Shown here in pieces: positions 6,374 to 53,205 of a stretch of DNA of 64,000 nucleotides. This stretch comes from Ilumatobacter coccineus YM16-304. Its GTDB lineage: Bacteria > Actinomycetota > Acidimicrobiia > Acidimicrobiales > Ilumatobacteraceae. The translations under genes and the position numbers were made by a program. The notes beneath the pieces are model-generated. The model was not told where the DNA came from. It made no database searches and saw only the letters and a list, made by a program, of their open reading frames with translations. Within the stretch, counting starts at the first letter, position 1. Each line of letters begins with the position of its first letter. The DNA lies in contig NC_020520.1 in the NCBI RefSeq assembly GCF_000348785.1, positions 558,001-622,000 on the forward strand, given 5' to 3'.

Positions 6374-6387
6374 CCCGACGACCCCGA

Positions 6388-6422
6388 CCTGGCTATTTCC
6401 ATCCGGGATGGAAATAACCAGG
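6388..6422. terminator. 35-bp inverted repeat after Lon-like gene (terminator or operator)
   Basis: Two 17-bp arms (CCTGGCTATTTCCATCC and its near-perfect complement, one mismatch) flank a single base, 15 bp after the protease stop and 33 bp before the DivIVA-domain -10 box. AT-rich core (TATTTCC/GGAAATA) and no T-run make an operator about as likely as a terminator. Confidence 0.5.
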
Positions 6423-6454
6423 TGGGCCTCCACCATCTCAGCGTCTGGGACGCG

Positions 6455-6460
6455 TAGCGT
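6455..6460 (+). promoter_or_regulatory. -10 box TAGCGT for DivIVA-domain gene
   Basis: TAGCGT 7 nt before ATG 6468; identical hexamer and spacing to the PAC2 promoter. Leaderless arrangement. Confidence 0.45.
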
Positions 6461-6467
6461 TGCGTGA

Positions 6468-8570: not shown

Positions 8571-8573
8571 GCT
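8568..8573 (+). promoter_or_regulatory. -10 box TAGGCT for UPF0182 gene
   Basis: TAGGCT, whose TAG is the stop codon of the preceding gene, ends 8 nt before ATG 8582. Lets the UPF0182 gene be transcribed without a leader from inside the upstream stop. Confidence 0.4.
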
Positions 8574-8581
8574 CAGCGTCG

Positions 8582-11608: not shown

Positions 11609-11678
11609 CGCGCTGCGCCCGAACCGATCGGGCACCGCATCGTGCCGGTGAACAGGGGCGCCGCGCTCCGCCGAAGCG

Positions 11679-12683: not shown

Positions 12684-12709
12684 GAGTTCCTGGCAGAAAT
12701 CTACCTGAC

Positions 12710-12715
12710 TACTGT
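12710..12715 (+). promoter_or_regulatory. -10 box TACTGT for trpB2
   Basis: TACTGT ends 8 nt before ATG 12724, with TTCCTG at 12687 as a weak -35 at 17-bp spacing. Leaderless arrangement. Confidence 0.4.
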
Positions 12716-12723
12716 TTCGCAAC

Positions 12724-14094
12724 ATGGCTGGCCACGACACTCCCAAGAAGATCCACCTCGACGAATCCGAGATGCCGACGCAGTGGTACAACGTCGTCGC
12801 CGATCTCCCCACGCCTCCGCCCCCGGCGCTGCACCCCGGAACCCACGAGCCGGCCGGCCCCGACGACTTCGCGCCGCTGTTCCCGATGGCGCTCATCGAG
12901 CAGGAGGTCACCACCGAGCGGTACGTCGACATTCCGGGCGGCGTGCTCGACGTGTACAAGCTGTGGCGGCCGAGCCCGCTGTTCCGCGCCAAGCGCCTCG
13001 AGGAGATGCTCGACACCCCGGCGCGCATCTACTACAAGTACGAGGGTGTGAGCCCGGCCGGGTCGCACAAGCCCAACACCTCGGTGCCCCAGGCGTACTA
13101 CAACCACCAGGAGGGCATCACGAAGCTCACCACCGAGACCGGTGCCGGGCAGTGGGGCAGCGCGCTGGCGTTCGCCACGGCGCAGTACGGCATGGAGTGT
13201 GAGATCTGGCAGGTGGCGGCGTCGTACAAGCAGAAGCCGTACCGCAAGACGATGATGGAGATCTGGGGCGCCACGCTGCACTCGTCGCCGTCCGAGCTCA
13301 CCGAGTTCGGTCGAGCGCTGCTCGCCGAGAACCCCGACCACACCGGTTCGCTCGGCATCGCGATCTCCGAAGCGGTCGCCATGTGTGTGGCCGATCCCAA
13401 CGCTCGGTACGCGCTCGGCTCGGTGCTCAACCACGTGCTGATGCACCAGACGATCATCGGCGAAGAAGCACTGCTGCAACTCGCCAAGGTCGACGAGACA
13501 CCCGACGTGCTGGTGGGTTGCACCGGCGGCGGGTCGAACTTCGGTGGGCTCGCGTTCCCGTTCCTGCGCGAGAAGCTGGCCGGCAAGATGGATCCGATCA
13601 TCCGTTGCGTCGAGCCGGCAGCGTGCCCGACGCTCACGAAGGGCGAGTACCGCTACGACTTCGGCGACAGCGCCGGCATGACCCCGCTGATGAAGATGCA
13701 CACGCTCGGTCACAGCTTCGTGCCCGAACCGATCCACGCCGGCGGGCTCCGCTATCACGGCATGGCGCCGCTCGTCTCGCACGTCTACAACGAAGGTCTC
13801 GTCGAGGCGATCGCCATCCCGCAGCGCGAGTGCTTCGCCGCTGCGATCGACTTCGCCAAGACCGAGGGGATCGTGCCGGCGCCCGAGCCGACACACGCCA
13901 TCGCCGCGGCCGTTCGTGAAGCGTTGGCGTGCAAGGAGTCGGGTGAGGAGAAGGTCATCCTCACCGCGCTGTGCGGCCACGGCCACCTCGACCTGGCGAG
14001 CTACGAGAAGTACCTCCACGGCGACATGGTCGACTACGAACTGCCCGACGATGCGATCGCCGAAGCGATGAAGTCGGTGCCCGTCCTCAACTGA
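12724..14094 (+). CDS. trpB2: Stand-alone tryptophan synthase beta-like protein, TrpB2 clade
   Basis: 456 residues, longer than classic TrpB (about 400) and with the extended N-terminus of the TrpB2 group ([20 protein letters not shown]). PLP Lys is K116 in [10 protein letters not shown]; the phosphate-binding Gly loop is [11 protein letters not shown]. TrpB2 enzymes condense indole with serine (or phosphoserine) and are usually made without a TrpA partner; none is nearby, which agrees with a stand-alone indole-salvage role. Whether tryptophan is the only product cannot be told from sequence. Confidence 0.93.
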
Positions 14095-14147: not shown

Positions 14148-16181
14148 GTGACCTCGCACGACCCGTCCGATGCCATCGCCGAGGGAGGAGCACGCCGATT
14201 CGTCGCGCTGGTGGCCGTGGCGGGCTTCCTCGCTTCGGCGATGCTCGTCCTCTCGCTCGCGCCCGATGCGCCTCGCGCCCGTTCGGCGACCGGCGAGATC
14301 GTGGCGACCGAACCGACGCGCCTGCTCGACACACGGCCGGGCGAGTCGACGATCGACGGCGAGTCGGCGGGGGAAGGACGCATCGAGGCGGGCGAGACCC
14401 TGAGCGTGCGCGTGGCCGGACGGGCCGAGGTGCCGGCCGATGCCGGCGCCGCCTTCCTCAACGTCGTGGCGATCAGCCCGGAGCGGCGCGGCTACCTGAC
14501 GATCTTCCCGTGCGACGGCGACCAGCCGACGGCGGCGAGCCTCAACTACGAGGGCGGCAGCGTCACCGCGAACGCCACGCTCGCCCGGCTGTCGGGTGAC
14601 GGCTCCGTGTGCATCTTCTCGTCGGCCACGACCCACCTGGTCGCCGACGTGACGGGCAGCGTGCCCGACGACGGCTCGCCGGTGGCGCTCACGCCCGCCC
14701 GTCTCTTCGACTCGCGTGACACCGGCACGACCGTCGACGACCTGTTCCTCGGTGGCGGTCCGGTCGACGTCGACTCGGTGACGCCGATCGACGTGGCCGG
14801 ACGCGGTGGCGTGCCCGCCGACGCGGCGTCGGTGATGCTCAACGTCACCGCCGTCGGCGCGCAAGCCAACGGGTGGGTCACCGTGTTCTCGTGCGACGAC
14901 GACGTGCCGCTCGCCGCCAACCTCAACTACTCGGCTGGCGGGGTGGTCGGCAACGGAGCGCTCGCGACGCTCGACGACACCGGGCGAGTGTGCGTCTACT
15001 CGAAGGCGTCGATCGAGCTCGTCGTCGACGTGACGGCGTACGTGCCCGACGATCGTGACCCGGTGGCGGCCGAGCCGATCCGACTGCTCGAGAGCCGGTT
15101 CACGAGGAGCAACTCGACCATCGACGGGCAGAGCTGGCGTCTCGGACGTCGCTTCGGCGGGACGACCACGCAGCTCCAGATCGGCGGCCGGTGGTTCGTC
15201 CCCGACGGGATCGACGCGGCGTTCATCAACGTCACGGCGATCGGCCCGTCGACGCGTGGCTTCGTCACGATCTACCCGTGCGGCACCGAGCGTCCCAACG
15301 CGGCGAGCCTCAACTTCGTCGCCGGTGAGGTGCGTGCCAACTCGGTGCTCGTCAAGCTGGGCGGAGGAGGCACGGCGTGCATCTACACGTCGGCCGAGAC
15401 CGATCTCGTCGTCGACCTGTCGGGCTGGATCGACGACCCGGCGACCGCACCGCCCACCGAGCCGCCGCCGACGTCGACACCCGGGGCCACGCCCGACACC
15501 GTCGTGGCGCCGTCGACGACGCAACCGCCTGCGACGTCGCCGACGAGCGGGGCGTTCAGCCTCCTGATCGAGCAGCCGGGCTATGGGGTGATCCGGTGGG
15601 ATCCGTGCCGTCCGATCCGCTATCTCGTCAACAGTGCGCTGGCCACGCCCGAGCAGATCTTCTACATGAACCAGGGGATCGCCAAGATCGAGCAGGCGAG
15701 CGGAATCGACTTCGAGTACGTGGGCCAGACCGACGGTGGCCACGAACTCGACGTGCCGGCCGGTCAGAACGCCGATGCGGTGTTGGTGTTCAGCAGCCGT
15801 GCGCTGTCGTCACGCCTCGTCGGCAACGTCGGAGTCGGTGGACCGAGCGTGAACTTCTACAGCGGCGGCCGAGCCCGTATGACCTCCGGTGGGGTCGCCG
15901 TCGACACCGAGCAGATGACGCAGGGCAACCAGCATCTGGTGTGGGCGCACGAACTCGCGCACATGCTCAACCTCGGTCACGTCTCCGATCCGAACGAACT
16001 GATGGCGCCGCTGCTCGACGGACAGAACGACTTCGGCCCCGGTGATCGGCAGGGCCTGTGGACGGTCGGCGCAGCGCAGGGGTGCCTGCCGGCGGTGCGA
16101 GCAGGCGATCACCTCGTCGCTTCGGAGTCGAACTTCGGTCACGAACATCACGACGGGCACGACGAGCAGCACACCGACTGA
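14148..16181 (+). CDS. Secreted metzincin-like metalloprotease with RLLDTR repeats
   Basis: About 677 residues. An N-terminal hydrophobic signal (FVALVAVAGFLASAMLVLSL) is followed by three repeats of about 125 residues with the pattern RLLDTR..STIDG..VAGRAEVP..NVVAIS..FPC..AASLNY..VCIFSSATTHLVADV. A Pro/Thr linker (about 435-470) leads to a peptidase domain with HELAHMLNLGH: HExxH with the third His at metzincin spacing, but Asn where metzincins have Gly, and a Met-turn LMAP downstream. The His-rich tail (HEHHDGHDEQH) may bind metal. GTG 14148 is chosen because AATACT lies 6 nt upstream; ATG 14130 is an alternative. Confidence 0.82.
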   Translation: MTSHDPSDAIAEGGARRFVALVAVAGFLASAMLVLSLAPDAPRARSATGEIVATEPTRLLDTRPGESTIDGESAGEGRIEAGETLSVRVAGRAEVPADAGAAFLNVVAISPERRGYLTIFPCDGDQPTAASLNYEGGSVTANATLARLSGDGSVCIFSSATTHLVADVTGSVPDDGSPVALTPARLFDSRDTGTTVDDLFLGGGPVDVDSVTPIDVAGRGGVPADAASVMLNVTAVGAQANGWVTVFSCDDDVPLAANLNYSAGGVVGNGALATLDDTGRVCVYSKASIELVVDVTAYVPDDRDPVAAEPIRLLESRFTRSNSTIDGQSWRLGRRFGGTTTQLQIGGRWFVPDGIDAAFINVTAIGPSTRGFVTIYPCGTERPNAASLNFVAGEVRANSVLVKLGGGGTACIYTSAETDLVVDLSGWIDDPATAPPTEPPPTSTPGATPDTVVAPSTTQPPATSPTSGAFSLLIEQPGYGVIRWDPCRPIRYLVNSALATPEQIFYMNQGIAKIEQASGIDFEYVGQTDGGHELDVPAGQNADAVLVFSSRALSSRLVGNVGVGGPSVNFYSGGRARMTSGGVAVDTEQMTQGNQHLVWAHELAHMLNLGHVSDPNELMAPLLDGQNDFGPGDRQGLWTVGAAQGCLPAVRAGDHLVASESNFGHEHHDGHDEQHTD

Positions 16182-17975: not shown

Positions 17976-19340
17976 TCAGATGTCGATCTGTGTCGACGGG
18001 GTCTTGTAGCTCTCGTTGCCGGCCGCGTCGACGGCTCGCACCTGGTACCAGTGGCTACCAGCCGCCGGTGTGGGCACGGTGAACGTGGTGCTCGGTACAC
18101 GGCCGATCTCGACGGCGTTGCGGAACACGATGTATTCGGTGACGCCGACGTTGTCGGTCGAGGCGGTCCAGGTGAGGGTGACGTCGCCGTTGTCTTCGAT
18201 CACGCCGACCAGATCCCGCGGCGTGTTCGGCGGTGTGGCATCGACACCCAAGATGGTGATCTTGGTGGACGGGGTCTTGTAGCTCTCGTTTCCGGCGGCG
18301 TCGACCGCTCGCACCTGATACCAGTGATCGCCGTCGGCCGGGGTCGGCACGACGAACGTGGCGCTCGGTGCACGGCCGATCTCGACGCCGTTGCGGAACA
18401 CGATGTATTCGGTGACGCCGACGTTGTCGGTCGAGGCGGTCCAGGTGAGGGTGACGTCGTCGTTGTCTTCGATCACGCCGACGAGGTCGCGTGGCGTGGT
18501 CGGTGCGGTGGTGTCGCCCGCGCTGATCGTGATCATGGTGGAGGGCGTCTTGTAGCTCTCGTTGCCCGCGGCGTCGACGGCACGGACCTGGTACCAGTGG
18601 TTGCCCGCCGCCGGGGTCGGCACCGTGAAGGTGGTGTCGGCGGCTCGGCCGATCTCGACGGCGTTGCGGAACACGATGTATTCGGTGACGCCGACGTTGT
18701 CGGTGGAGGCGGTCCAGGTGAGGGTGACGTCGCCGTTGTCTTCGATCACGCCGACGAGATCGCGCGGTGTGGTCGGTGCGGTAATGTCGCCGGCGTCGAT
18801 GGTGATCTTCGTCGACGGCGTCTTGTAGCTCTCGTTGCCCGCGGCGTCACGAGCTCGCACCTGGTACCAGTGGTCGCCCGCTGCAGGGGTGGGGACGACT
18901 GCGGTCGGCGTGAGCACGGTGTCGATGACGACGCCGTTGCGGTACACGATGTAGTCGACGACGCCGATGTCGTCGGTGGATGCGGTCCAGGTGAGGGTGA
19001 CGTCGCCGTTGTCTTCGATCACGCCGACCAGGTCGGTGGGTGTGGTCGGTGCGGTGACGTCGTCGCCGAGGATCGTGACCTTGATCGGGATGTTCTTGAA
19101 GCCTTCGTTGCCGGCGGCGTCGAGGGCTCGCACCTGATACCAGTGGTCGCCGGCGTCGGGGGCGGGCACCACGAAGCTCGTGTCGGCGGTGCGGCCGATC
19201 TCGACGCTGTTGCGGAACAGCACGTACTCGGTGACGCCGACGTTGTCGGTCGATGCGGTCCAGGTGAGGGTGACGTCGCCGTTGTCTTCGATCACGCCGA
19301 CGAGGTCGGTGGGCGTGCTCGGGCGGGTCGTGTCGACGTC
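17976..19340. repeat. Five tandem 273-bp repeats encoding FnIII domains
   Basis: The landmark GTGACGTCG(C/T)CGTTGTCTTC occurs at 18178, 18451, 18724, 18997 and 19270: exactly 273 bp apart each time (91 codons). High DNA identity between copies points to recent amplification or gene conversion. Confidence 0.92.
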
Positions 19341-20969
19341 GGTCGCCGTGAACACCTGCGTGGTGGCCGAACGGTTGCCGGTGTAGTCCATGGCCCGGAC
19401 GAAGTAGCGGTCGGCGCTGGTGCCCTCGGCGTCACGGAACGTCGTGATCGAGATGTACGACGCGAGGACCGAGTCGTTCTTCAGGAGTTCGTAGCGGACC
19501 TGACCTCCGCGGTCGTCGCCGGCCGACGGCTCCCAGGCGAGGTTGACGCCGTTGCTGACCACTTCGGCCGTCGGGTTCGACGGGGGAGCGGGCGGGGTGG
19601 AGTCGGCAGCGCAGAACTTGGCGAAGCCGCCGACGTAGCGGGGCGTGTTGCCGTCGTAGCTACCGCGGTTGAAGTCGCCGCCCGCCCACAGGCAGTCGGT
19701 CGAGTCGGCGAAGAGTTCCCAGGCGCCTTCGCCGCGCTCGGTGCCGATCTGCGGGTACCAGGTGAGGTGGTCGTGGGTGCCGCCGATGGTGGCGTCCCAG
19801 GCACCCATCCAGCGGACGGGCTTGCGCGAGGTCCAGCCGTTGAGGTTCGGGTACGAGGTGGTGTCGGCGTACTCGTAGGTGTCGCCGTTGGCGTGGCTGC
19901 CTTGATAGACGATGCCGTTCATTTCGGTGAGTGCCTGGCCGTCGCCCCACGGGTAGCTGATGAAGCCGCGCAGCAGTCCGAAGTCGGAGGCGCGGTACAC
20001 CTGCTGGCTGTGTTGGGCGCCGGTGAGCCACACTTCGTCGCCGAGCGAGAGAACGGCCTGCTGGTACGAGTTGTAGACGTTGGCCGTGTAGGTGCGGACC
20101 ATCGGCTCGAGGTCGGGAACGAGTTGGCCGTTGCTGGCGTGCATGGTGCCCATGCCGATCGACCAGGTGCCGTTGACGTAGAAGAAGTTGCCGGCGGCGT
20201 AGACGCGGTCTCCGTCGGCGTCGACGTCGAACACGATGCCGTTGATGTCGGGCAGGAAGGCGCCGTCGATGTTGCCGGTGCTGAGCGTTGCGCGGGCGAT
20301 GCGCCCGGCGTTCTTGGTGATGCCGTCGGAGCCTTTGATCTGCGTGAAGTTGCCGCCGATGTAGAGCTTGTTGCCTTCGATGTCGAGGGCGCGGGCGAGC
20401 GGGCGGGCGTTGCTGCCGGTGAGCGTGAGGCTGACGCGCCACGTCGGGTCGACGGCGCCGGTGGTGGCATCGAGCATGGCCACGCCGGAGGTGTTGGCGA
20501 CGCCGTTGATGTTGGTGAACTGTCCGGCGACGATCAGGCGACCGTCGTCGGTTGCCTTGAGGTCCCAGACGTTGCCGTTGACGGTCGGGCGGAACGTGTC
20601 GATCCAGGCGCCGGTGGTGCGGTCGAACGCGGCGAGGAACGGTTGGTCGAAGCGTTCGCCGGTGGCGGCGATCTCGACGCGGGTGAACTTGCCGCCGACG
20701 TACATCGTGTCGCCGATCTCGGCGAACGCGGCGACGCGGATGTTGGTGTTGGGGAAGCTGTCGTTCTGCGAGTTCATGCCGGTCACACCGGCAGCGAGGA
20801 CTTCGGTGCGCTCCGACACGAGCGGCGACGCGGCGACAGGCAGTGCCGGGAGGCCTTCGTCGGGGATCGGGTCGGCGGCGAGCACCGTCGAGCTCGCCGG
20901 GGTGGTGACGAGCACCGAGGCGGCGACCGCTGTCGCCAGGAGGAGTCCGCGCATCGTGTTCTGTTTCAT
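17976..20969 (-). CDS. Secreted surface protein: beta-propeller-like N-terminus and six fibronectin type III domains
   Basis: 997 residues. Signal peptide MRGLLLATAVAASVLVTTPASS ends near residue 30. Residues 45-440 contain delta-60-like repeat units (DGRLIVAGQFTNINGVANTSG, NKLYIGGNFTQIKGSDG) suggesting a beta-propeller. Six FnIII domains follow; the last five are near-identical, each 91 residues with DLVGVIEDNGDVTLTWTAST, YIVFRN and HWYQVRAVDAAGNESYKTP. There is no LPXTG or TM anchor, so it is probably released or held by another protein. Likely adhesion or polymer binding. ATG 20969 begins a perfect signal peptide; the frame stays open upstream but looks non-coding. Confidence 0.85.
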   Translation of the reverse strand: MKQNTMRGLLLATAVAASVLVTTPASSTVLAADPIPDEGLPALPVAASPLVSERTEVLAAGVTGMNSQNDSFPNTNIRVAAFAEIGDTMYVGGKFTRVEIAATGERFDQPFLAAFDRTTGAWIDTFRPTVNGNVWDLKATDDGRLIVAGQFTNINGVANTSGVAMLDATTGAVDPTWRVSLTLTGSNARPLARALDIEGNKLYIGGNFTQIKGSDGITKNAGRIARATLSTGNIDGAFLPDINGIVFDVDADGDRVYAAGNFFYVNGTWSIGMGTMHASNGQLVPDLEPMVRTYTANVYNSYQQAVLSLGDEVWLTGAQHSQQVYRASDFGLLRGFISYPWGDGQALTEMNGIVYQGSHANGDTYEYADTTSYPNLNGWTSRKPVRWMGAWDATIGGTHDHLTWYPQIGTERGEGAWELFADSTDCLWAGGDFNRGSYDGNTPRYVGGFAKFCAADSTPPAPPSNPTAEVVSNGVNLAWEPSAGDDRGGQVRYELLKNDSVLASYISITTFRDAEGTSADRYFVRAMDYTGNRSATTQVFTATDVDTTRPSTPTDLVGVIEDNGDVTLTWTASTDNVGVTEYVLFRNSVEIGRTADTSFVVPAPDAGDHWYQVRALDAAGNEGFKNIPIKVTILGDDVTAPTTPTDLVGVIEDNGDVTLTWTASTDDIGVVDYIVYRNGVVIDTVLTPTAVVPTPAAGDHWYQVRARDAAGNESYKTPSTKITIDAGDITAPTTPRDLVGVIEDNGDVTLTWTASTDNVGVTEYIVFRNAVEIGRAADTTFTVPTPAAGNHWYQVRAVDAAGNESYKTPSTMITISAGDTTAPTTPRDLVGVIEDNDDVTLTWTASTDNVGVTEYIVFRNGVEIGRAPSATFVVPTPADGDHWYQVRAVDAAGNESYKTPSTKITILGVDATPPNTPRDLVGVIEDNGDVTLTWTASTDNVGVTEYIVFRNAVEIGRVPSTTFTVPTPAAGSHWYQVRAVDAAGNESYKTPSTQIDI

Positions 20970-22511: not shown

Positions 22512-22588
<77 letters not shown>

Positions 22589-32519: not shown

Positions 32520-34967
32520 TCAGGCGTCGACGGTGTAGCCGACCACGTCGACGGCGAGGTCGGTGCCCGACGTCGAGTACAGGCACACATCGCCCGACGC
32601 GCTCAGCTTCACGACCACCGCATTCGACACGATCGAGCCCGCAGTGAAGTTCACGTTCGACGCCTCCGGACGATCCTCGTCGCACGGGTAGGCCGTGATG
32701 AAACCGCCCGTGTCGGGGCGGATCGCGGCCACGTTCAACACCGCACCCGTCGCATCTTCACTCACCCCACCGCGACCGGCCACCCGCAGCGACGTGCGTG
32801 ACATCGCCCCGACCGGCGACGTCGTCGCACTCTGGCCGTCCACCGTGTCGAGACCCGCCCGAGTCTCCAACAGTCGAGCCGGAACGATCGACAAGAGGCC
32901 GCCGCCGGCCGGCACGAACGCAGCGACATCGACCACCAGATCGGTCGCCGCACTCGAGAACACACAGATCGTCCCGGCCGCGCTGACCTTCGCCACGACG
33001 AGGTTGTTCACGATGGAACCGGCCGCCGCATTCAGACTCGATGCGCTGGGCTGATCCTGGTCACACGGGTAGACGGTCAAGAACGCTCCGGTCGACGGCT
33101 TGATCGCCGTGGCGTTCACGACCACCGCGTCGGCGTCGGATGTCACGCCGCCCCGACCCGTCACCTTCAGCGTCGTCGTCGAGTTCGCCCCGACGCGTCC
33201 GAGCCGTTGCGACACGCCGTCGATCGTTTCACCCGTCGGTCGACTGTCGAGCAGACGAGCCGGCACCAACGGTGACACCGAGCCGCCGTCGGGCACGAAA
33301 CCGTTGACGTCGACGATCAGATGCGCCGACGCCGATGTGTACAGACACACGGTCCCCGCCGCGCTCAGCGTGGCGAACGCGGCAGCCGACGCCGCCCCGC
33401 TGGAGGTGTAGTTGAGATTGGACGCCGTCGGCTGATCGGCGTCACACGGGTACACGGTGATGAAACCGACCCCGCTGGCCTGTGCGGCGGACACGTTGAG
33501 GTTGACGGCCTCGGCGTCGGCGGGCACCCCGCCGCGTCCCGCGACCTGGAGCACCTTGACCTGACCGCCGGGGACAGGACCATCACCGAGGGCCTCGCCG
33601 TCGACGGTCGACACGCCACTGCCGGATCGGGTCTCGAGGAGGCGAGCCGGCGGCAACGTCAAGATGCCGGGCGCCACCACCGAGAAGCCGACCGCGACCG
33701 TGTCGGCTCCCTTCGCACCGACCGCGACACCGGTGCCGTCGGCGCCGATCGCGACCGACGGCGTCTCGTAGATCTGGCCGGAGAACGGCGCCGTCTGATG
33801 AATCTCGGAGCCATCCGCTCGGACATGGAAGATGTCACCGCGGTTGGTCGAGAACACGAACGTGCCGTCACCGACGGCGTCGACGCTCTGCATGACGCCG
33901 GAGTCGCTGCGCGTGCCGGTGCGGAGGCTGGCCCCGTTGCGGTCCAACAGGTTGGTCCAGATCGTGCCGGCGAAGCGCGTGGTCGACGCGACGAACCAGT
34001 TGCCCGTCGCCGGATCGCCGACCGGAATGGCTCGCATGACGGGGCCCGAGTAGATCGGGTCGACGGGATCGACGTCGACGGTCAGGATCGACCCGACCGG
34101 GGTGAGCGCGGACGTGAGGATCTGGGCCTCGAATCGGCGGCCGTCCCGGTTGGCACCTGCGCGCAACTCGGTGAACGACCGGGTCACCATGATCTGGTTC
34201 GTCACGGGATTGTGGCCGAGCGCCGGAATCGGTGTGCCCTCCTCGGAGTTGGTCAACACGTCGACACGCGTGCCGCGGCCCAGCGACCCACTCAGCGCCT
34301 GGACCGTGGTGGTCACCTCGTTCTCCAGCCCGTCACACGTACCTCGCACGGGGTTGCCGTAGAAGATCTTCGTGTAGGCGAGCACGTACCCACCGGTGTT
34401 CGGATCGGCGACAACGTCGGGATAGCGCGGATAGCACGCGCCGGCCAGCCCCGTCTGCGCCGTGCCGAGCGGCGGGTTGAGCGGAACCTCGCCGCCCACG
34501 AGCGCCCCCATGTCCGACACCAACCGTCCGAGCACGACCGCGAAACGCCGATCCTCGATGTCGTCGGCGCCGCTCGCATCTCGCCCGAACACGACGAGGT
34601 ACTGGTTCGTGGCCGCGTTGTAGGCCACCTTGGGAGGCATGAACGACTGCTGCAACAGGTTGCCGTCGTCGTTGTGTCCCTGAGCAGCGATCTTGATCGG
34701 GGCGTCGAGCGGCGAGCCGTCGGCGGCGAGACGCTGTCCGTAGATCTCGCCGGCCACGGTCCCGAAGTCCTCCCACACGGCGAAGTACTCGTTTCGCTCC
34801 GGGTTGTGGGCGATCTCGTGGTTCCGGTTCTGGATGTCGCCTGCCACGACCACCTTCGGTGGTTCGGGCTCGACGCGTGCGTCGACGGGCGTCGCCGTGA
34901 CGGAGGTGAGGACGATCAGCGCACTCGCAGCTGTCGTGATGATCGAGGCAAAGCGGGATGTTCGCAC
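32520..34967 (-). CDS. Secreted protein with four RLLDTR repeats
   Basis: About 815 residues from GTG 34967, which gives a clean signal peptide (FASIITTAASALIVLTSVTATPVDA) and has TACATT 6 nt upstream; GTG 34988 is the alternative. Residues 35-430 form a beta-rich domain with repeating NEYFAVWEDFG / NQYLVVFGRD / GYVLAYTKIF units, perhaps a propeller. The rest is four repeats of about 115-125 residues (RLLETRSGSGVSTVDG ... VAGRGGVP ... LNVSA ... YPCD ... ASNLNY ... VCLYTSASAHLIVDVNGF). The same repeat family occurs in the metalloprotease at 14148. Extracellular; ligand unknown. Confidence 0.8.
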   Translation of the reverse strand: MRTSRFASIITTAASALIVLTSVTATPVDARVEPEPPKVVVAGDIQNRNHEIAHNPERNEYFAVWEDFGTVAGEIYGQRLAADGSPLDAPIKIAAQGHNDDGNLLQQSFMPPKVAYNAATNQYLVVFGRDASGADDIEDRRFAVVLGRLVSDMGALVGGEVPLNPPLGTAQTGLAGACYPRYPDVVADPNTGGYVLAYTKIFYGNPVRGTCDGLENEVTTTVQALSGSLGRGTRVDVLTNSEEGTPIPALGHNPVTNQIMVTRSFTELRAGANRDGRRFEAQILTSALTPVGSILTVDVDPVDPIYSGPVMRAIPVGDPATGNWFVASTTRFAGTIWTNLLDRNGASLRTGTRSDSGVMQSVDAVGDGTFVFSTNRGDIFHVRADGSEIHQTAPFSGQIYETPSVAIGADGTGVAVGAKGADTVAVGFSVVAPGILTLPPARLLETRSGSGVSTVDGEALGDGPVPGGQVKVLQVAGRGGVPADAEAVNLNVSAAQASGVGFITVYPCDADQPTASNLNYTSSGAASAAAFATLSAAGTVCLYTSASAHLIVDVNGFVPDGGSVSPLVPARLLDSRPTGETIDGVSQRLGRVGANSTTTLKVTGRGGVTSDADAVVVNATAIKPSTGAFLTVYPCDQDQPSASSLNAAAGSIVNNLVVAKVSAAGTICVFSSAATDLVVDVAAFVPAGGGLLSIVPARLLETRAGLDTVDGQSATTSPVGAMSRTSLRVAGRGGVSEDATGAVLNVAAIRPDTGGFITAYPCDEDRPEASNVNFTAGSIVSNAVVVKLSASGDVCLYSTSGTDLAVDVVGYTVDA

Positions 34968-44902: not shown

Positions 44903-46645
44903 ATGAAACAACACACCCCCAACGCTGCCCGCCACGACTCGAACCCGCGACTGCGACTCCTCTCGGTGCCGGTGCTGCTCAGCTTCGCGCTGGCCGCCGG
45001 CGCCTGCTCGAGCAACGGCATCACCGCACCGGAAACGACCACGACCGCCGCACCCACCAGCACGCCCATCACCGGCGCTCCACCCGCCAGCACGCCCACC
45101 TCGACCGCGCCCGACACGGTCGTCGACAACACGGCGTCGACCGACACATCACTCGCGCCCGAGCGCACGACTCCGCCCATCAGCACCCAAACCGACCAGC
45201 CCGATGCCGACAGCCAGAGCGATACCGACGGCGAACGCGCCCACGCCGACATCGTCGCCGACTTCTTCGCCGAGCTCGACGCGGAGAACTTCACTGGGAC
45301 AGTGATGGCGACGACGCCCGACGGCGTGTACAGCGCCGGCTTCGGTGCGGCAGACCGCTCGGCGGGAGTCGACAACGACGTCGACACCGTCTACGACATC
45401 GGGTCGCTCACCAAGCAGTTCACCGCTGCGGCCATCGTGCGTCTGGAGATGGACGGCCTGCTCTCGGTCGACGACAACATCGGCCAGTACGTCGACGGGC
45501 TCACCCCCGAACAGAGTGAGATCACCCTCCACCAACTGCTCACCCACACCTCGGGTGTTCCACATGGGTTGGGGCCCGACGACGAGGTCATCGGTCTTGC
45601 CGACTACATCGAGCGCGTCGCGAACTCCGAGTTCCCGGCGTCACCCGTCGGTGAGTACGCGTACTCGAACGTGGGGTACAGCCTGCTCGGCGCTGTTGTC
45701 GAGGCCGTCACCGGCGGTTCCTACGAGGCGTACCTGCGTGACGCGCTGTTCCTGCCGGCCGGCATGTTGCACACGGGCTACGTACTCGCCGACTGGACGG
45801 ACGCAACCATCGCCGTCGGGTACGTCGGCGACGAGGTCTTCGGGCGTCCGAACGAGCAGCCGTGGGCTGTCGATGGTCCGGGATGGAACCTGCGCGCGAA
45901 CGGCGGCCTGCTCTCGACCATGCCCGATCTACATCGATGGGACGCGGCGTTGCGCGGCGACGAGATCCTCGACGCAGATGCCAAGGCGAAGCTGTTCGCG
46001 CCGCACGTCGAAGTCGCCGGGGGCGACGGGGCACATTCCGGATACGGATGGAACGTCGTTCCGTTCGACGACGGCACGACGCTGATCACCCACGTTGGTG
46101 GCAACGGTGTCTTCTTCGCCGACTTCTATCGCTTCGTCGACCACGGCATCACGATCTCGATCGCGTCGAACGTGGCCGATCCGTTGGCATTCGACGTCGG
46201 CGGCGGCCTGGCCAGCATGCTCCTGCCCGAACTGTTCGCGGATGGTGTCTGCGAGCTCGATCCGACACCTGTCGACGCAGCGGCCGGGTTCGACCTCGTC
46301 GCCGACTTCCCCGACACCCCGGCTGGGCGTGCGATGGACAACTGGATCCAGCTCGTGCTCTCCGACAGCTCGAGCGACGCCGACGACCGGTCGATGCTCG
46401 TCGACTACGTGAAGCAGTCGATCGGCGACGGCTTCATCGACGAGCTGGGTTCCGAGACGGTGGCCGACATGATCACGTCACTCCAGGACACCCTCGACGG
46501 CTTCGACCTCGACCGCATCCATCAGGAAGACGACACGACGTTCCACGTCGTCGTCGCCGACCCGGACGGCAACGACGCCGTGATCTCGACCCGTCTCGAC
46601 GCCACTTCCCACCCGCGCGTCGACTGCATCGGCGTCTTCGTCTGA
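44903..46645 (+). CDS. Serine beta-lactamase-like lipoprotein (S12 family)
   Basis: 580 residues. Lipobox LAAGAC (C35), then a long Thr/Pro/Asp-rich linker to about residue 110. Beta-lactamase class C/DD-peptidase domain with S168-x-x-K171 (GSLTKQF), Y254-S-N (AYSNVGYS) and a THVGGNG strand near the end of the domain in place of KTG. A C-terminal about 140-residue domain follows. Probably a cell-envelope peptidase or esterase, not necessarily a lactamase. GAGG at -7. Confidence 0.85.
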   Translation: MKQHTPNAARHDSNPRLRLLSVPVLLSFALAAGACSSNGITAPETTTTAAPTSTPITGAPPASTPTSTAPDTVVDNTASTDTSLAPERTTPPISTQTDQPDADSQSDTDGERAHADIVADFFAELDAENFTGTVMATTPDGVYSAGFGAADRSAGVDNDVDTVYDIGSLTKQFTAAAIVRLEMDGLLSVDDNIGQYVDGLTPEQSEITLHQLLTHTSGVPHGLGPDDEVIGLADYIERVANSEFPASPVGEYAYSNVGYSLLGAVVEAVTGGSYEAYLRDALFLPAGMLHTGYVLADWTDATIAVGYVGDEVFGRPNEQPWAVDGPGWNLRANGGLLSTMPDLHRWDAALRGDEILDADAKAKLFAPHVEVAGGDGAHSGYGWNVVPFDDGTTLITHVGGNGVFFADFYRFVDHGITISIASNVADPLAFDVGGGLASMLLPELFADGVCELDPTPVDAAAGFDLVADFPDTPAGRAMDNWIQLVLSDSSSDADDRSMLVDYVKQSIGDGFIDELGSETVADMITSLQDTLDGFDLDRIHQEDDTTFHVVVADPDGNDAVISTRLDATSHPRVDCIGVFV

Positions 46646-46899
46646 TGGCCGCACTGCCGGGGTCACGCGACTCGACCGCCGACCACGACCGTTTGCCCGA
46701 TCGGCCGACCGGCTGGGTGCTCGGCGCCGCGGTGGGCGTCGGCAGCAGTCTCAGCGCCACGGTCGGCTCGGTCACCGGCGACTGGTCACGGGCATCGGTC
46801 GTCCTCGCCGCCTGCATCTCGCTCGGCGCGATCGCCGCGCTGCGGATCGGTCGTGGCTCGAGACGCACGAGGTCGCAGTCCCGTGCCACCTCGGAATGA
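46645..46899 (+). CDS. Small two-TM membrane protein
   Basis: 84 residues starting on the last base of the preceding stop (TGATG), so coupled to the S12-type lipoprotein. Two hydrophobic segments (GWVLGAAVGVGSSLSATVG; ASVVLAACISLGAIAALRIG) and a basic tail RGSRRTRSQSR. No family recognised. Confidence 0.55.
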   Translation: MAALPGSRDSTADHDRLPDRPTGWVLGAAVGVGSSLSATVGSVTGDWSRASVVLAACISLGAIAALRIGRGSRRTRSQSRATSE

Positions 46900-46949
46900 T
46901 CGACGGCAGGTGCATGCCGTGAGTCGGAGTGCTCAGGTCATTGGAGTGC

Positions 46950-47111
46950 TCAGGTCAGTGGTGTGGGACCGGGCTCCGGAACGTCCGGATCCGGGTCGGG
47001 CACCGGTGGGATGACCGGCTCGTGGCCGGGGTCGGGATCGGGGATCGTCGGCGTGTGCGTCGGATCGGGGTCGGGGATGATCGGATCGGGATTCGATGGC
47101 ACATCGGACAT
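46950..47111 (-). CDS. Small Pro/Asp-rich protein (doubtful)
   Basis: 53 residues, MSDVPSNPDPIIPDPDP followed by repeated PDPDP units. No ribosome-binding site, and its 5' end lies inside a duplicated non-coding segment (47079-47240). The DPDP pattern is not random in composition, so it may be a small disordered protein, but translation is unproven. Confidence 0.3.
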   Translation of the reverse strand: MSDVPSNPDPIIPDPDPTHTPTIPDPDPGHEPVIPPVPDPDPDVPEPGPTPLT

Positions 47112-47240
47112 GCGCGGAACGTACCCAACTCTCGCCGCCGTATTCCTCGGCAGGCTGGTCACCCACCTGGAACGTGACCGGAATGCAGCGGGGCCGTACC
47201 GGTCCAGCGTTCGAAGGCACGGTGAACGACGGCTGGTCGG
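47079..47240 (+). repeat. Direct repeat copy 1, carrying an AraC 3'-end remnant
   Basis: About 162 bp, roughly 85% identical by eye to 50121-50279, same orientation. Shared blocks include GATCGGATCGGG, GTATTCCTCGGC and CTGGAACGTGACCGGAATGC. Read on the minus strand its right part is the last codons of the AraC-type gene at 50200 (DQPSFT..AFERWTG) with a one-base deletion, so it is a broken gene end. Confidence 0.85.
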
Positions 47241-47285
47241 AGCAGCACAGGGCGTGACATGCCGCCACGGGAGCTCGGACGCGAC

Positions 47286-47315
47286 GGTGGGGCGCCGCCG
47301 AAGCAGCGCCCCACC
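47286..47315 (-). terminator. katG terminator with UUCG tetraloop
   Basis: 13-bp stem (GGTGGGGCGC outer arm perfectly paired, one G-T wobble near the tip) closed by TTCG as read on the minus strand, 24 bp past the katG stop. Extra-stable tetraloop, no T-run. Confidence 0.75.
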
Positions 47316-47338
47316 GGACGTCTCGGAATCGAGTCGGG

Positions 47339-49543
47339 TCAGTCGAGGTCGAAGCGGTCGTTCTCCATGACCGTGACCCAGCCGTCGATGAAGTGGCGGA
47401 TCATGTCGCTCTCGCCACCGGCAGCGGCGAACTCCTCGGAGAGTGCACGCAGCTGGCTGTTCGCACCGAACACGAGGTCGACGCGGGTGCCCTTCCACTT
47501 CGGCTCGTCGGTCGCACGGTCACGGCCTTCGAAGACGTCGTCGCCCTCGCCGACCGGCGACCACAGGGTGCCCATGTCGAGCAGGTTGACGAAGAAGTCG
47601 TTGGTCAGCAGGCCCTTGCGGTCGGTGAATTCGCCGTAGCCGTCGCCACCCACGCTCGCACCGAGCACTCGCAGACCACCGACGAGGGCGGTCATCTGCG
47701 GAGCGGTCAGGTTCAGCATGAACGCCTTGTCGATGAGCATGTGCTCGGTCGGAACGTTGCCCTGCTTCTTGACGTAGTTGCGGAAGCCGTCAGCGTTCGG
47801 CTCGAGCCACGAGAACGACTCGACATCGGTGCTCTCCTGGCTGGCATCGGTGCGACCCGGGGTGAACGGAACCGACACGTCGTGGCCGGCCGCCTTGGCG
47901 GCAGCTTCCACAGCAGCCGAACCACCGAGCACGATGAGGTCGGAGAGCGACACCTTCGCGCCGCCCTTCGCGTTGAAGTCGGCCTGGATCTGCTCGAGCT
48001 TCGAGATGACCGGACCGACACCGGACTGCACGTTGATGTCCCAGTCGGTCATCGGCGACAGGCGGATGCGAGCGCCGTTGGCGCCGCCGCGGAAGTCGGT
48101 CTTGCGGTAGGTCGACGCAGCGGCCCACGCGGTCGAGATGAGCTGCTCGGTCGAGAGACCCGAGTCGAGCAACGTCGACTTCAGCTCGGCGATCTCGCTG
48201 TCGCCGATGAGCGCACCCTCGTGAGCGGGCACGTTGTCTTGCCAGACGTATTCCTCGCCCGGAACCTGCGGTCCGACGTAGCGGATCGCAGGGCCCATGT
48301 CGCGGTGCAACAGCTTGAACCAGGCGTTGGCGAATGCCTCGGCGAGCTGATCGGGGTTCTCGTAGTAGCGCTTCGAGATCTCGAGGTAGGCCGGATCGGT
48401 GATCATCGCCATGTCGGCGGTCGACATCGTCGGCTTCGTCTCGGGTGCACCCGGGGCGACGGGCGGAACCATGAATCCGTCGCGCACCGACTTGGGCTGC
48501 CACTGCTGGGCACCGGCCGGTGAGTGGACGAGTTCCCACTCGTGACCGAAGATCGTCTCGAGGTACGAGTTGTCCCACTGGGTCGGTGTCGGGGTCCAGG
48601 CTCCTTCGAGACCGGACGTGATGGTGTACTCGCCGAGCCCGGTTTCGTTGGTGTTCGCCCAGCCGAAGCCCTGCGCTTCGAGGCCGCCACCTTCCGGTTC
48701 GGCACCCACGGCGTCGGCCGGGCCGTTGCCGTGCATCTTGCCGAACGTGTGGCCGCCGACGACCAGTGCGACGGTCTCTTCGTCGTTCATGGCCATTCGG
48801 CTGAACGTTTCACGGATGTCCTGCGCCGACTTCATCGCGTCGGCGACACCGTTCGGGCCCTCGGGGTTGACGTAGATCAAGCCCATCTGCACGGCGGCGA
48901 GCGGGTTGTCGAGGAGACGGTTGCCGTCTTCGAACGAGCCGGTGTAGCGCTCGTCTTTGTCGCCGAGCCATTCGTTTTCGGGGCCCCAGTAGATGTCGTC
49001 TTCGGGTGCCCAGATGTCGGCGCGACCGAAGGCGAAGCCAGCGGTCGTGAAGCCCATCGTCTCGAGTGCGCGGTTGCCGGCGAAGACGAAGAGGTCGGCC
49101 CACGAGATCTGCTTGCCGTACTTCTGCTTGATCGGCAGGAGCAGGCGTCGGGCCTTGTCGAGGTTGCCGTTGTCGGGCCAGGAGTTGAGCGGGGCGTAGC
49201 GCTGGGCGCCGGTGCCGCCGCCGCCGCGGCCGTCACTGACACGGTAGGTGCCGGCGGCGTGCCAGCTCATGCGGATGAAGAAGCCGCCGTAGTGGCCCCA
49301 GTCGGCGGGCCACCAGTCTTGTGAGTCGGTCATCAGCGCGTCGACGTCGGCGGTGAGCGCCTCGACGTCGATTCCGGCGAATGCCTTGCGATAGTCGAAG
49401 TCGGGTCCGAAGGGGATCGAGTCGGGGTGGTTCTGGTGCAGGATTCGCAGGTTCAGCGAATTGGGCCACCACTTCTCGTTCGACTGGAACTCGGCGGAAG
49501 TGAGAGAGCCCCACTCTGCGGCGGGGGAAGCTTGGTCGGTCAT
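47339..49543 (-). CDS. katG: Bifunctional catalase-peroxidase KatG
   Basis: 734 residues, standard length. Distal heme side R91-M-S-W94-H95 in [13 protein letters not shown]; proximal His265 in [12 protein letters not shown]. The Met-Tyr-Trp crosslink needed for catalase activity should form from W94, Tyr224 ([13 protein letters not shown]) and Met250 (FSRM), with spacing as in known KatGs. Duplicate C-terminal peroxidase-like domain present. Removes hydrogen peroxide in the cytoplasm. AAGGAG 7 nt before ATG. Downstream of furA in the usual actinobacterial order. Confidence 0.98.
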
Positions 49544-49633
49544 CGGTGCTCCTTGGTGGTGTTGCTGGTGCTGGGTGGATGCCGGTCGGTCGACCGGGTG
49601 GTGGGGAGAATCTGAGTGGCGCGTGTGTGTCGA

Positions 49634-50062
49634 TCAGGCCTCGGCGGGCAGGGCCTGGCAGTCGGGGCAGATGCCCCAGTAGGTGACCTCGGCCTCGTCG
49701 ACGATGAAATCGCCGGAGTCGACGGGGATGAGGCAAGGCACCTCGCCGGTGGCGCAGTCGACATCGACGAGGCGGTCGCAGCGGCGGCAGACGAGGTGGT
49801 GGTGGTTGTCGCCCACACGGTCTTCGAACCGAGCCGACGAACCCGCCGGCTGAATTCGGCGGATGAGGTCGCGTTCGGTGAGCAGGGTCAGCGTGTCGTA
49901 CACCGACTGCCGAGAGATCGAACCGATCTCGAGTCGGACGTCGTCAGCGAGCTCTTGAGCGGTGGCGTGCGGGCGGGCTGAAACGGCGCGGAGCACAGCG
50001 AGGCGCTGGGCGGTCACGTTCAATCCGTGAGTGCGAAGCATGGCGACGGAGTCGGTGGTCAT
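49634..50062 (-). CDS. furA: FurA-type repressor of katG
   Basis: 142 residues. Winged helix (NVTAQRLAVLRAVSARPHATAQELADDV; ISRQSVYDTLTLL), metal cluster DNHHHLVCRRC (H87-H89, C92, C95) and a second Cys pair C132-P-D-C135 that complete the structural zinc site. Known FurA proteins autoregulate and repress katG, and derepress on peroxide. ATG 50062 is almost at the predicted transcription start, so the mRNA is leaderless or nearly so, as in mycobacteria. 90 bp separate it from katG. Confidence 0.95.
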   Translation of the reverse strand: MTTDSVAMLRTHGLNVTAQRLAVLRAVSARPHATAQELADDVRLEIGSISRQSVYDTLTLLTERDLIRRIQPAGSSARFEDRVGDNHHHLVCRRCDRLVDVDCATGEVPCLIPVDSGDFIVDEAEVTYWGICPDCQALPAEA

Positions 50063-50070
50063 CGGAATCC

Positions 50071-50099
50071 ATACAAGCACGAACTTTGGACTCTGTCAA
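50071..50099 (-). promoter_or_regulatory. furA-katG promoter
   Basis: Minus-strand TTGACA (50099-50094), exact 17-bp spacer, TTGTAT (50076-50071). The start point would fall 1-3 nt before the furA ATG. The AT-richer spacer (GAGTCCAAAGTTCG) is a probable FurA site. Confidence 0.7.
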
Positions 50100-50120
50100 G
50101 AACTGGATGATCGCCAGTGC

Positions 50121-50279
50121 GATCGGATCGGGCTCGGTGGGACATCGGACGTGCGCGGAACGGTGTCGACGCTCGCCGCTGTATTCCTCGGCCGGCTGGT
50201 CAACTGGAACGTGACCGGAATGCTGCGGGGGTCGTGCCGGTCCAGCGTTTGAAGGCACGCGTGAACGAGGTCTGGTCGG
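50121..50279 (+). repeat. Direct repeat copy 2, spanning the AraC gene end
   Basis: Intact partner of 47079-47240. It covers the last about 80 bp of the AraC-type gene and about 80 bp beyond its stop, up to the furA promoter. The two copies bracket furA-katG in direct orientation. Confidence 0.85.
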
Positions 50280-51195
50280 CGAACCCGGTCAGGAAGGCGA
50301 TGTCGACGATGGAGTGGCGACTCGTGGTCAACAGGGATTCTGCGGCCTCTCGGCGTGCCCGGGTGGCGATCGCCTGGAACGTCTCGCCCTGGTCGGTGAG
50401 GTGGCGGTGGAGCGTGCGCTCACTGAGCCCGAGCCGGCGGGCGACTCGCGACTTGCTCGGTTGGCCGTCGGGAAGCGCGTCGGTGATCGCAGCTCGAACG
50501 TCGTCGACGATCGAACGGGTCGCCTTGCGCGCCGCGAGGTCATCGAGTCGGGCGAGCAGGTACGACGACAGTCCGTCATCGGCGAGCAGCGTTCGGCGCG
50601 CCAGGAGCGCATGGGGGAGGTGAATGCTGTTCGTCGGCGCGTCGAAGCGGACGCGACACCCGAAGTACTCGCGGTGATGACGGTCGTCGTCGGGCCCAGC
50701 GTGCTGCAGCTCGACGAGCGACGGCGCGATCGGGTCGCCGATGATGCTGCGCAGCATCGAGACGACGGCTGAGAGGGCGCACTCGTTCGCGATCGCCGCG
50801 CCGCGACGATGATGCGGCCGCCCGACGAGTGCGAATGCCCGACCGTCGGCCGAGTCGACGAACTCGTACTCGAGCGTGTCGCTCAGGACGAGCACGTAGC
50901 GACGCAGGCGTTCGAGCGCGGACTCGATCGTCGCTGCCGTCTTCAGTGCGAGGCCGAGCGCGCCGAGGTCGTCGGGCCGCAGCGCGCGGCCGTATCGAAA
51001 CGGGAAGTCCGGATCGTCGTCGGCGATCCGTTCGAGCAGGGCGTAGTACGCGCCCTCGTCGACGGCTTCCCCTGCCCACCCCACGTCGGGCTCTCCCGGC
51101 GGCAGGCCGACGCTGGCGAGGAGATCGTCGCGGCCGTGTCGGGAGTCGGCCACGTCGATCATGCGACGCACGACTGGTGTGCCGACCGAGGCCAT
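50200..51195 (-). CDS. AraC-family regulator, arabinose-binding-domain-like (OruR/GbdR-like N-terminus)
   Basis: 331 residues. N-terminal ligand domain of the Arabinose_bd (PF12625) type (DLLASVGLPPGEPDVGWAGEAVDEGAYYALLERIADDDPDFPFRYG; ALKTAATIESALERLRRYV), then two HTH motifs (SKSRVARRLGLSERTLHRHL; SIVDIAFLTGFADQTSFTRAFKRWTGTTP). ATG 51195 lies 6 nt after TACAAC. Its C-terminal end is duplicated on the far side of katG. Divergent from the DUF4386 gene, which it may control. Confidence 0.88.
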   Translation of the reverse strand: MASVGTPVVRRMIDVADSRHGRDDLLASVGLPPGEPDVGWAGEAVDEGAYYALLERIADDDPDFPFRYGRALRPDDLGALGLALKTAATIESALERLRRYVLVLSDTLEYEFVDSADGRAFALVGRPHHRRGAAIANECALSAVVSMLRSIIGDPIAPSLVELQHAGPDDDRHHREYFGCRVRFDAPTNSIHLPHALLARRTLLADDGLSSYLLARLDDLAARKATRSIVDDVRAAITDALPDGQPSKSRVARRLGLSERTLHRHLTDQGETFQAIATRARREAAESLLTTSRHSIVDIAFLTGFADQTSFTRAFKRWTGTTPAAFRSRSS

Positions 51196-51201
51196 GACGG
51201 T

Positions 51202-51207
51202 GTTGTA
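51202..51207 (-). promoter_or_regulatory. -10-like TACAAC for AraC gene
   Basis: TACAAC on the minus strand, 6 nt before ATG 51195; last base departs from TANNNT. Confidence 0.3.
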
Positions 51208-51322
51208 GCAGAACCGCGGCGATGGCCCGATCGGTCAATCGGTCGGCCGCCGAAGCCAAGACCAGGCTCCCCACGCGTCCGTACGGTCGAACACGTCGCC
51301 ACTCACTCGAAAGGACATCGCC

Positions 51323-52060
51323 ATGCACACCGAAGCCGCCACCGTTCAGCGGCCGTCGAGGCGGGCACGCCGGACCGGAATCGCCTACCTGGGCATCATC
51401 GTCACCGGGATCTTCGCCGAGTTCGCCGTGCGGGGTTCGTTGATCGTCGACGACGATCCGATCGCCACCGCGGCGAACATCGCCGGGTCGCCCGGACTGT
51501 TCGGCATCGGAATCGGAGCAGACGTCGTCATGATCGCACTCGACGTGGTCGTGGCGTTCGGGCTGTTCGGACTCCTCCGCCACGTCGACCGTCGCTGGGC
51601 GATCGCTGCTGCCGTACTGCGCTTGATCCAGGGCGCAGTGCTCGTCGCCAACCTGAACTTCTTGTGGCGAGCGCTCTTCTCCGCGCTCGACGCCGAAGGC
51701 AGCGATGGGTCGATCGCGATCGGTCCGGCGCAGGACGCGCTCGACGCGGTCGAACGTCACGCGCTCGGGTACGACGTCGGACTGATCGCGTTCGCGTTCA
51801 GCTGCCTGGTGCTGGCCCGACTGCTGGCGGTCGGCGGGCTCGTGCCGCGGGTGCTGGCGTGGGGCATGGCCGCCACCGGTGGCGTCTACCTCATCGGTTC
51901 GGCGGCGGCGGTGTTCGCACCCGATGCGAGTTCGGTCATCGAACCGTTCTACGTCATCCCCCTCGTCGTCGAGTGCGCCCTTGCGGTCCGTCTCGTCACC
52001 CGCGGCCTCGATCACCCGACCGACGCCATCACCCACCGACCCGTTCGGGTCGCAGCCTGA
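51323..52060 (+). CDS. DUF4386 family membrane protein
   Basis: 245 residues, six TM helices (AYLGIIVTGIFAEFAVRGSLIV; IGADVVMIALDVVVAFGLFGLL; WAIAAAVLRLIQGAVLVANLNFL; LIAFAFSCLVLARLLAVGGLVPRVLAWGM), the usual DUF4386 layout. Function unknown. GAAAGGA 9 nt upstream. Followed 17 bp later by the quinone-oxidoreductase-like gene, likely one transcript. Confidence 0.85.
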   Translation: MHTEAATVQRPSRRARRTGIAYLGIIVTGIFAEFAVRGSLIVDDDPIATAANIAGSPGLFGIGIGADVVMIALDVVVAFGLFGLLRHVDRRWAIAAAVLRLIQGAVLVANLNFLWRALFSALDAEGSDGSIAIGPAQDALDAVERHALGYDVGLIAFAFSCLVLARLLAVGGLVPRVLAWGMAATGGVYLIGSAAAVFAPDASSVIEPFYVIPLVVECALAVRLVTRGLDHPTDAITHRPVRVAA

Positions 52061-52077: not shown

Positions 52078-53205
52078 ATGAAGACCACGACACACACCGC
52101 CACTCCCACTACCACGCCCGCCACCACGCCCACCCCGTCACACACCACCACGCCCACCACGTCACACACGACCACGCCCACCCCGACCGGCGCCACGAGC
52201 CGGGTTCGGTCTGCCCGGATGACGGCGATCGTGCAACAGCGCTACGGCGATGCCGACGCCCTCGAACTCCGGGAGCTTCCGCGTCCCGAGCTCGGCGAGC
52301 ACGACGTGCTCGTCCGCGTCGACGCCGCAGGTGTCGACCGGGGCGTCTGGCATCTCATGACCGGACGGCCGTATCTCACCCGCCTCGCGTTCGGACTTCG
52401 TCGTCCGCGGAACCCCGTGCCTGGACTCGACGTGGCCGGGGTCGTCGACACCGTCGGTGCAAAGGTGACGCGATTCGCGGAGGGCGACCTCGTGTTCGGC
52501 CACGGGCACGGCACGTTCGCCGAGTACGCACGAGCATCAGAAGACTGCCTCGCGGCAGTTCCCGCCAACCTCGACATGACCGCAGCCGGGGTGCTGGCCG
52601 TCACCGGCACCACGGCACTTCAGGCGGTCGAAGACCACGGCGGAGTTCGACCAGGCGATCAGGTCTTGGTGCTCGGAGCGTCCGGTGGCGTCGGCACCTA
52701 CGCCGTCCAGATCGCCGTGGCGCTGGATGGCATCGTCACCGGCGTCGCGAGCGCAGGCAAGCTCGAACTCGTCCGCCGGCTGGGTGCTCACCGCGTCATC
52801 GACTACCGAACGGCCGATCCGCTCGCCGAGCCGAGTCGCTACGACGTCATCATCGACACCGGCGGGAATCGATCGATTCGCGACCTGCGGCGCGCGCTGA
52901 CGCCTTCGGGCACGCTCGTGATCGTCGGCGGAGAGAACGGCGGCCGCTGGGTCGGCGGGGCCGATCGTCAGATCAGAGCGAAGGTCGCGTCGCTGTTCAG
53001 CCGCCGACGTCTCACCACGTTCGTCGCCCGGGAGGACTCGTCGCATCTCGAACGGCTGGCCGATCTCGTCGAGACCGGAGACGTCGTTCCCGTCGTCGAC
53101 CGAGTCTTCCCCCTCGCCGCAGCGGCCGACGCCATCGTTCGCCTGGAGCAGGGCGCAGCGAGCGGCAAGATCGCGATCACCGTTGCGCCCGCCGAGCGTG
53201 GGTGA
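52078..53205 (+). CDS. Zinc-less MDR, quinone-oxidoreductase-like
   Basis: 375 residues if started at ATG 52078, where GAAAGGA is found 13 nt upstream. The first about 40 residues are Thr/Pro/His/Ser only, from a C/A-rich simple repeat (ACCACGCCCACC-like); the enzyme proper starts at M48 (MTAIVQQRYGDADALELRE, ATG 52219). MDR body: GLDVAGVVDTVGAKVTRFAEGD, FAEYARASEDCLAAVP, Rossmann LVLGASGGVGTYAVQIA. No zinc ligands. Reduces quinones or enones with NADPH by analogy. Confidence 0.85.
   Translation: MKTTTHTATPTTTPATTPTPSHTTTPTTSHTTTPTPTGATSRVRSARMTAIVQQRYGDADALELRELPRPELGEHDVLVRVDAAGVDRGVWHLMTGRPYLTRLAFGLRRPRNPVPGLDVAGVVDTVGAKVTRFAEGDLVFGHGHGTFAEYARASEDCLAAVPANLDMTAAGVLAVTGTTALQAVEDHGGVRPGDQVLVLGASGGVGTYAVQIAVALDGIVTGVASAGKLELVRRLGAHRVIDYRTADPLAEPSRYDVIIDTGGNRSIRDLRRALTPSGTLVIVGGENGGRWVGGADRQIRAKVASLFSRRRLTTFVAREDSSHLERLADLVETGDVVPVVDRVFPLAAAADAIVRLEQGAASGKIAITVAPAERG

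Follow-up and report, generated by a model that had tools for sequence, protein, structure and literature searches.

The furA-katG operon of Ilumatobacter coccineus YM16-304 lies between two direct repeats that carry the end of the adjacent araC gene. We believe that this arrangement is, on balance, probably the scar of one furA-katG insertion behind araC, in which a target of ~160 bp was duplicated and the outer copy has been decaying. All positions given here are those of the window, the whole 64,000-nucleotide stretch that was analyzed (NC_020520.1, 558,001 to 622,000). A literature search found no publication on this furA-katG/araC locus.

Local alignment places the repeats at 47079-47240 (R1) and 50121-50279 (R2), both on the minus strand and in the same orientation, and these coordinates and the identity of about 85% agree exactly with the original prediction. 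Of the 164 alignment columns, 139 match, 18 are mismatched, and 7 carry a gap, which corresponds to an identity of 84.8% with gaps and 88.5% without gaps. R2 consists of the last araC codons and 79 bp of downstream sequence, confirming that this copy is the true gene end with its flank, and R1 is a decayed second copy of the same end and flank. A single one-base deletion, as had been claimed, does not describe R1: relative to R2, two single bases are missing in the AraC-coding part (MAFFT sets the second of these gaps at another place), and 4 extra bases are found at the former araC stop. The genome, one contig of 4,830,181 bases, was searched with 50100-50300 as the query, and 40 of the 83 first-look candidates were scored. 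The query matched itself and then R1 at E = 2.6e-42, and no third copy above chance was found among the scored candidates genome-wide, the next match being 27 bp long at E = 0.005. The repeats are thus a local duplication, as the original prediction held, rather than members of a dispersed family. Of 1960 pairs of 600-bp segments taken at random from the window, one outscored R1 and R2, presumably owing to repeats inside a large protein gene at 17976-19341. These internal repeats, about 81-83% identical, are the strongest of the window in self-BLAST, and the 1040-aa product of the gene has Ig-like/fibronectin-like Pfam hits. Within and between 14411-15425 and 32539-33610 there are also several stretches of 65-70% similarity, some direct and some inverted.

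The two copies differ in how far they have departed from the araC genes of related bacteria. The polarity of the differences was read over the 65-nt araC coding tail, with five relatives as the reference. Seven of the eight differences between R1 and R2 are derived on R1, none on R2, and one is undecided; this count rests on 65 nt, and one of the seven R1 changes was decided 3 to 2. The R1 changes affect all three codon positions and include two deletions, and in sequence terms they represent drift without selection. R2 is also nearer than R1 to each of the five relatives (for example, 58 versus 51 of 65 positions for G133). The comparison supports R2 as the live copy and R1 as the decayed copy. 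In the noncoding half, R1 and R2 differ at 12 of 79 positions, which is below the rpoB 4-fold divergence of 0.31 between the window genome and its closest relative, G034. Therefore, the duplication probably took place after the split from G034, although this is a rough estimate that compares different site classes.

On the minus strand, the order of features is araC, R2, furA, katG, hairpin, and R1, and each repeat keeps one outer neighbor, which is the topology of a target duplication. The araC-family regulator gene (50200-51195, minus strand, 331 aa, PF12625 and PF12833) has its last codons in R2. Its divergent neighbor is a DUF4386 gene (51323-52060, plus strand, PF14329), followed by a gene for a zinc-type dehydrogenase (52078-53205, plus strand, PF13602/PF00107/PF08240) as the third gene of the araC module. 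Orthologues of araC were found in 6 of 221 family genomes, including the window's own (E <= 1e-60). In all five relatives whose loci were read, the DUF4386 gene and a relative of the dehydrogenase gene stand beside araC, and the three genes stay together as a small module in six genomes, the window's own included. No furA or katG was found near the araC orthologue in any of the five relatives within the 13-19 kb read, which supports the original prediction on this point. At the DNA level, the window resembles the five araC loci up to the end of araC and no further, the R1 tail excepted, and a search of six relatives for the serine hydrolase to the left of R1 gave no match (E <= 1e-30). Therefore, these genomes do not display the site before insertion. 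By eye, the sequences downstream of araC in the relatives also differ from one another. A mosaic araC derived from a donor was rejected, as no one-sided identity jump was found along araC against the five relatives in six bins.

The stretch between the repeats (47241-50120, minus strand, 2880 bp) looks like one complete transcription unit, with a putative furA box, furA, katG, and a hairpin, and its promoter and hairpin limits were read by eye. The furA gene (49634-50062, minus strand, PF01475) encodes a Fur-family regulator whose best match in 150 family genomes is 69%; its ATG at 50062 was chosen by eye, and a longer GTG open reading frame extends to 50080. The katG gene (47339-49543, minus strand) encodes a catalase-peroxidase of 734 aa, with TIGR00198 and NF011635 above the cut-off. 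The two genes, identified by PF01475 and TIGR00198, are 90 bp apart on the same strand, and each has one match in the window's own genome at the cut-offs used. Ahead of furA, a promoter- or box-like element was placed by eye at 50071-50099 (minus strand; TTGACA, 17 bp, TTGTAT), and a consensus promoter scan listed no promoter there. Among nine other furA loci inspected by eye, five contain TTGACNNNGTCCAGAATC, three contain a close form, and none was seen at the corresponding place in G317. Of the relatives from outside the family that carry furA, G317 is the closest in the KatG tree, and its lack of such a box at that place weighs against the one-insertion reading. The form in the window is close to TTGACNNNGTCCAGAATC and not identical to it. 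After katG, a terminator-like hairpin without a T run lies at 47286-47316 (minus strand), and R1 starts 45 bp beyond it. For 47255-47330, the folding energy is -44.8 kcal/mol (z -3.5), a scan for a hairpin with a T run after katG found none, and a similar hairpin follows katG in two of seven loci inspected (G403 and CAMYLA). Since the putative furA box resembles those of eight of nine loci and the hairpin that of two of seven, the ends of the unit appear to be close to the repeats. An RNA element was considered and rejected: 46500-51400 has no Rfam match, and the R1 and R2 flanks show no unusual fold. A 53-aa Pro/Asp-rich open reading frame (46953-47111, minus strand) starts inside R1, and a search of the genome found only itself. 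Its ATG reads ACG at R2, and the old araC frame in R1 continues into it past the 4 extra bases. This reading frame may be a product of chance.

The family contains two types of katG, as distinguished by sequence, and the type found in the window is rare there. In a survey of 150 genomes sampled from the family, 70 carry katG, and KatG of the window type (83% or more) occurs in four of them, the window's own genome included; the other full-length KatG copies are at 66% or less, and fragments reach up to 73%. In a KatG tree built from 33 hand-picked rows, the window sequence belongs to a separate clade of 11 with full support, away from the type of G034. Members of this clade include G019, G079, and G123, other families of the order, G533 from another order of the class, and a Marinobacter. 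Among the ten clade loci besides the window, furA stands beside katG in five; it is missing there in G019, G079, L069, and L152, and katG of G123 is cut by the contig end. The window-type katG genes of G019 and G079 (L050 and L051) thus have no adjoining furA, and a search of G019 for furA gave no match at E <= 1e-15. Another locus with the same type of katG, L181 (G403:C4:298000-316000), contains a tandem duplication of 3738 bp at 99.1% that holds the gene (6129-13603). Its second katG copy matches from residue 67 only, and the duplication may be an assembly feature.

Comparison with RpoB gives a divided picture of how katG arrived. The window and its closest relative G034 share 58% in KatG and 95% in RpoB, and the window and G317, from another family, share 81% and 79%, respectively. 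Against G019, KatG is at 86% with a 4-fold divergence of 0.39, and RpoB is at 89% with 0.32. As the KatG distance to G019 is near that of RpoB, with KatG slightly more distant, a recent transfer does not follow. KatG is discordant with the closest relative, G034. The claim that furA-katG arrived at this place agrees with the five araC loci that are free of it, but a foreign origin is not implied by the KatG and RpoB distances. Common descent with a move within the chromosome to the present site would fit these sequences too.

Several observations together favor one insertion behind araC: the topology of the repeats, the decay of the outer copy, the condition of other katG loci, and the lack of integrase, transposase, and inverted repeats. 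None of nine other katG loci has strong flanking repeats, which suggests that the repeats belong to the site and not to the genes; for the same reason, we rejected the idea that the repeats travel with furA-katG as a mobile cassette. Weak flanking repeats were found at L179 (27 bp, 89%, E 0.004) and L183 (52 bp, 79%, E 3e-4), 0.9-2.9 kb from the katG genes. Pfam scans of 26 window proteins, 24 of which are among the 50 called genes, gave no integrase or transposase; the other 26 called genes lie mainly left of 35 kb. Between R1 and R2, furA and katG are the only called genes. Between the 60-bp ends of the unit, the best inverted repeat scores 6, a value at least equalled in 98% of 2000 random pairs. 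A composite transposon or insertion sequence was rejected in view of the missing terminal inverted repeat and the missing transposase among the 26 scanned proteins. As in an integrative element, the 3′ end of a gene is complete at one side (R2) with a displaced copy at the other (R1), but no internal integrase or recombinase was found between them. A tRNA-associated island was rejected as well, since the only tRNA of the window is at 22512-22588.

According to the one-insertion reading, a complete furA-katG unit, from the furA promoter to the katG hairpin, would have been placed immediately downstream of araC, leaving the ~160-bp target, with the last araC codons and their flank, on both sides. 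The copy attached to araC would keep the reading frame, and the outer copy would drift as a pseudogene end. Duplication and insertion would then be a single event, which may have occurred in this species' own lineage. The likeliest route would be that a DNA fragment was joined into a break, staggered or resected, and the gaps were filled in, with no transposase or integrase involved. End joining into such a break is plausible, and a Ku gene is present in the genome. Weighing against this reading, target duplications made by transposases are far shorter than 160 bp, no junction signature that would fix the insertion route was recognised, and the history may have comprised two steps. We put forward only tentatively, as an unlikely but specific version, that a chromosomal break took up the complete operon through end joining and that the ~160-bp fill-in duplication is the record of that break.

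The main rival is homology-facilitated illegitimate recombination, in which R2 would be the tail of a donor and R1 the displaced tail of the host. Either a donor araC end with furA-katG crossed over within araC and was joined illegitimately at its other end, or one crossover integrated a circular molecule that bore an araC end. This history would produce the same topology, it accords with the discordance between the KatG type and the closest relative, and such a mechanism is proposed for old 3′ genes downstream of a new module in the part of PMC5361080 that treats them. However, araC stands beside furA-katG in none of the five relatives read. A diverged donor should also have left some silent changes on the R2 branch, where none of the eight coding-tail differences falls (one being undecided), although 65 nt make this a weak argument. 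We rate homology-driven entry as possible, at odds clearly below those of a single insertion with target duplication.

A history that begins with duplication is less likely still. Here araC or its end would have been tandemly duplicated, and furA-katG would later have replaced most of the second copy. Tandem duplication at a locus with the same type of katG does occur, as seen for the 3738 bp at 99% in L181, but two events would be needed at one place, and window self-BLAST (E <= 1e-8) found no araC piece besides R1. We consider it very improbable that furA-katG stood ancestrally behind a single repeat, with repeat and operon then duplicated in tandem and the second operon lost. Although the topology would fit the "duplicated unit" that later decayed in the original prediction, self-BLAST at the same threshold revealed no further fragment of either furA or katG in the window, the genome contains one match for each gene at the cut-offs used, and the five araC loci of relatives are free of both. 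A whole duplicated unit that decayed is thus not needed to account for the locus. Finally, chance similarity can practically be dismissed and a dispersed repeat family is ruled out by the genome search, in which R1 and R2 stand as a pair with no further copies above chance level among the candidates scored.

The original prediction also held that homologous recombination between the repeats would delete both peroxide-defence genes, and this part is weakened. In E. coli, RecA-dependent exchange needs at least about 25 bp to be efficient. R1 and R2 are 85% similar, and their longest stretch of identical bases measures 19 bp, at or below this minimum, so deletion of furA-katG by this route is unlikely and, judged from the repeats, should be rare. 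A PF00199 catalase gene is located elsewhere in the genome (C1:4489619-4490773), and a catalase gene would therefore remain after such a deletion. The earlier interpretation holds in its main lines but overstates the consequence.

The gain of one or two genes often leaves no visible junction. Here the duplicated end of araC reveals both borders and the live copy and allows a rough relative dating, so that one locus is available for studying how a small operon enters a chromosome without mobile elements. If capture in a break is true and such scars recur in Acidimicrobiia, they could be used to date and map gene acquisitions that leave no trace of a mobile element. It is worth noting that the locus is otherwise ordinary genome history, and that the scar, though genuine and well marked, is not a very unusual one.

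Integrative elements at gene 3′ ends carry att repeats and, like this locus, have the complete 3′ end on one side and a displaced copy on the other. In contrast to them, the 2.9-kb unit contains no integrase, and its repeats are 160 bp long and diverged. In the furA-katG operon of actinobacteria such as Mycobacterium and Streptomyces, as far as it is described in the relevant part of PMC2464607, a Fur-family gene likewise lies directly upstream of katG in the same direction. The window resembles most of the loci compared in having a putative box before furA, and it differs from the known operon in its position behind araC, between duplicated araC ends, and in a KatG of the type found in four of 70 katG-bearing genomes. 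The immunity arrays of the type VI secretion system (T6SS) of Vibrio cholerae provide another parallel: the section of PMC5361080 on these arrays describes 3′ genes displaced after insertion of a module and proposes homology-facilitated illegitimate recombination. There, as here, an old gene end is shifted downstream of the new module. The arrays described in that section consist of whole immunity genes and grow by successive insertions, whereas the locus in the window contains one decayed 160-bp tail and no array.
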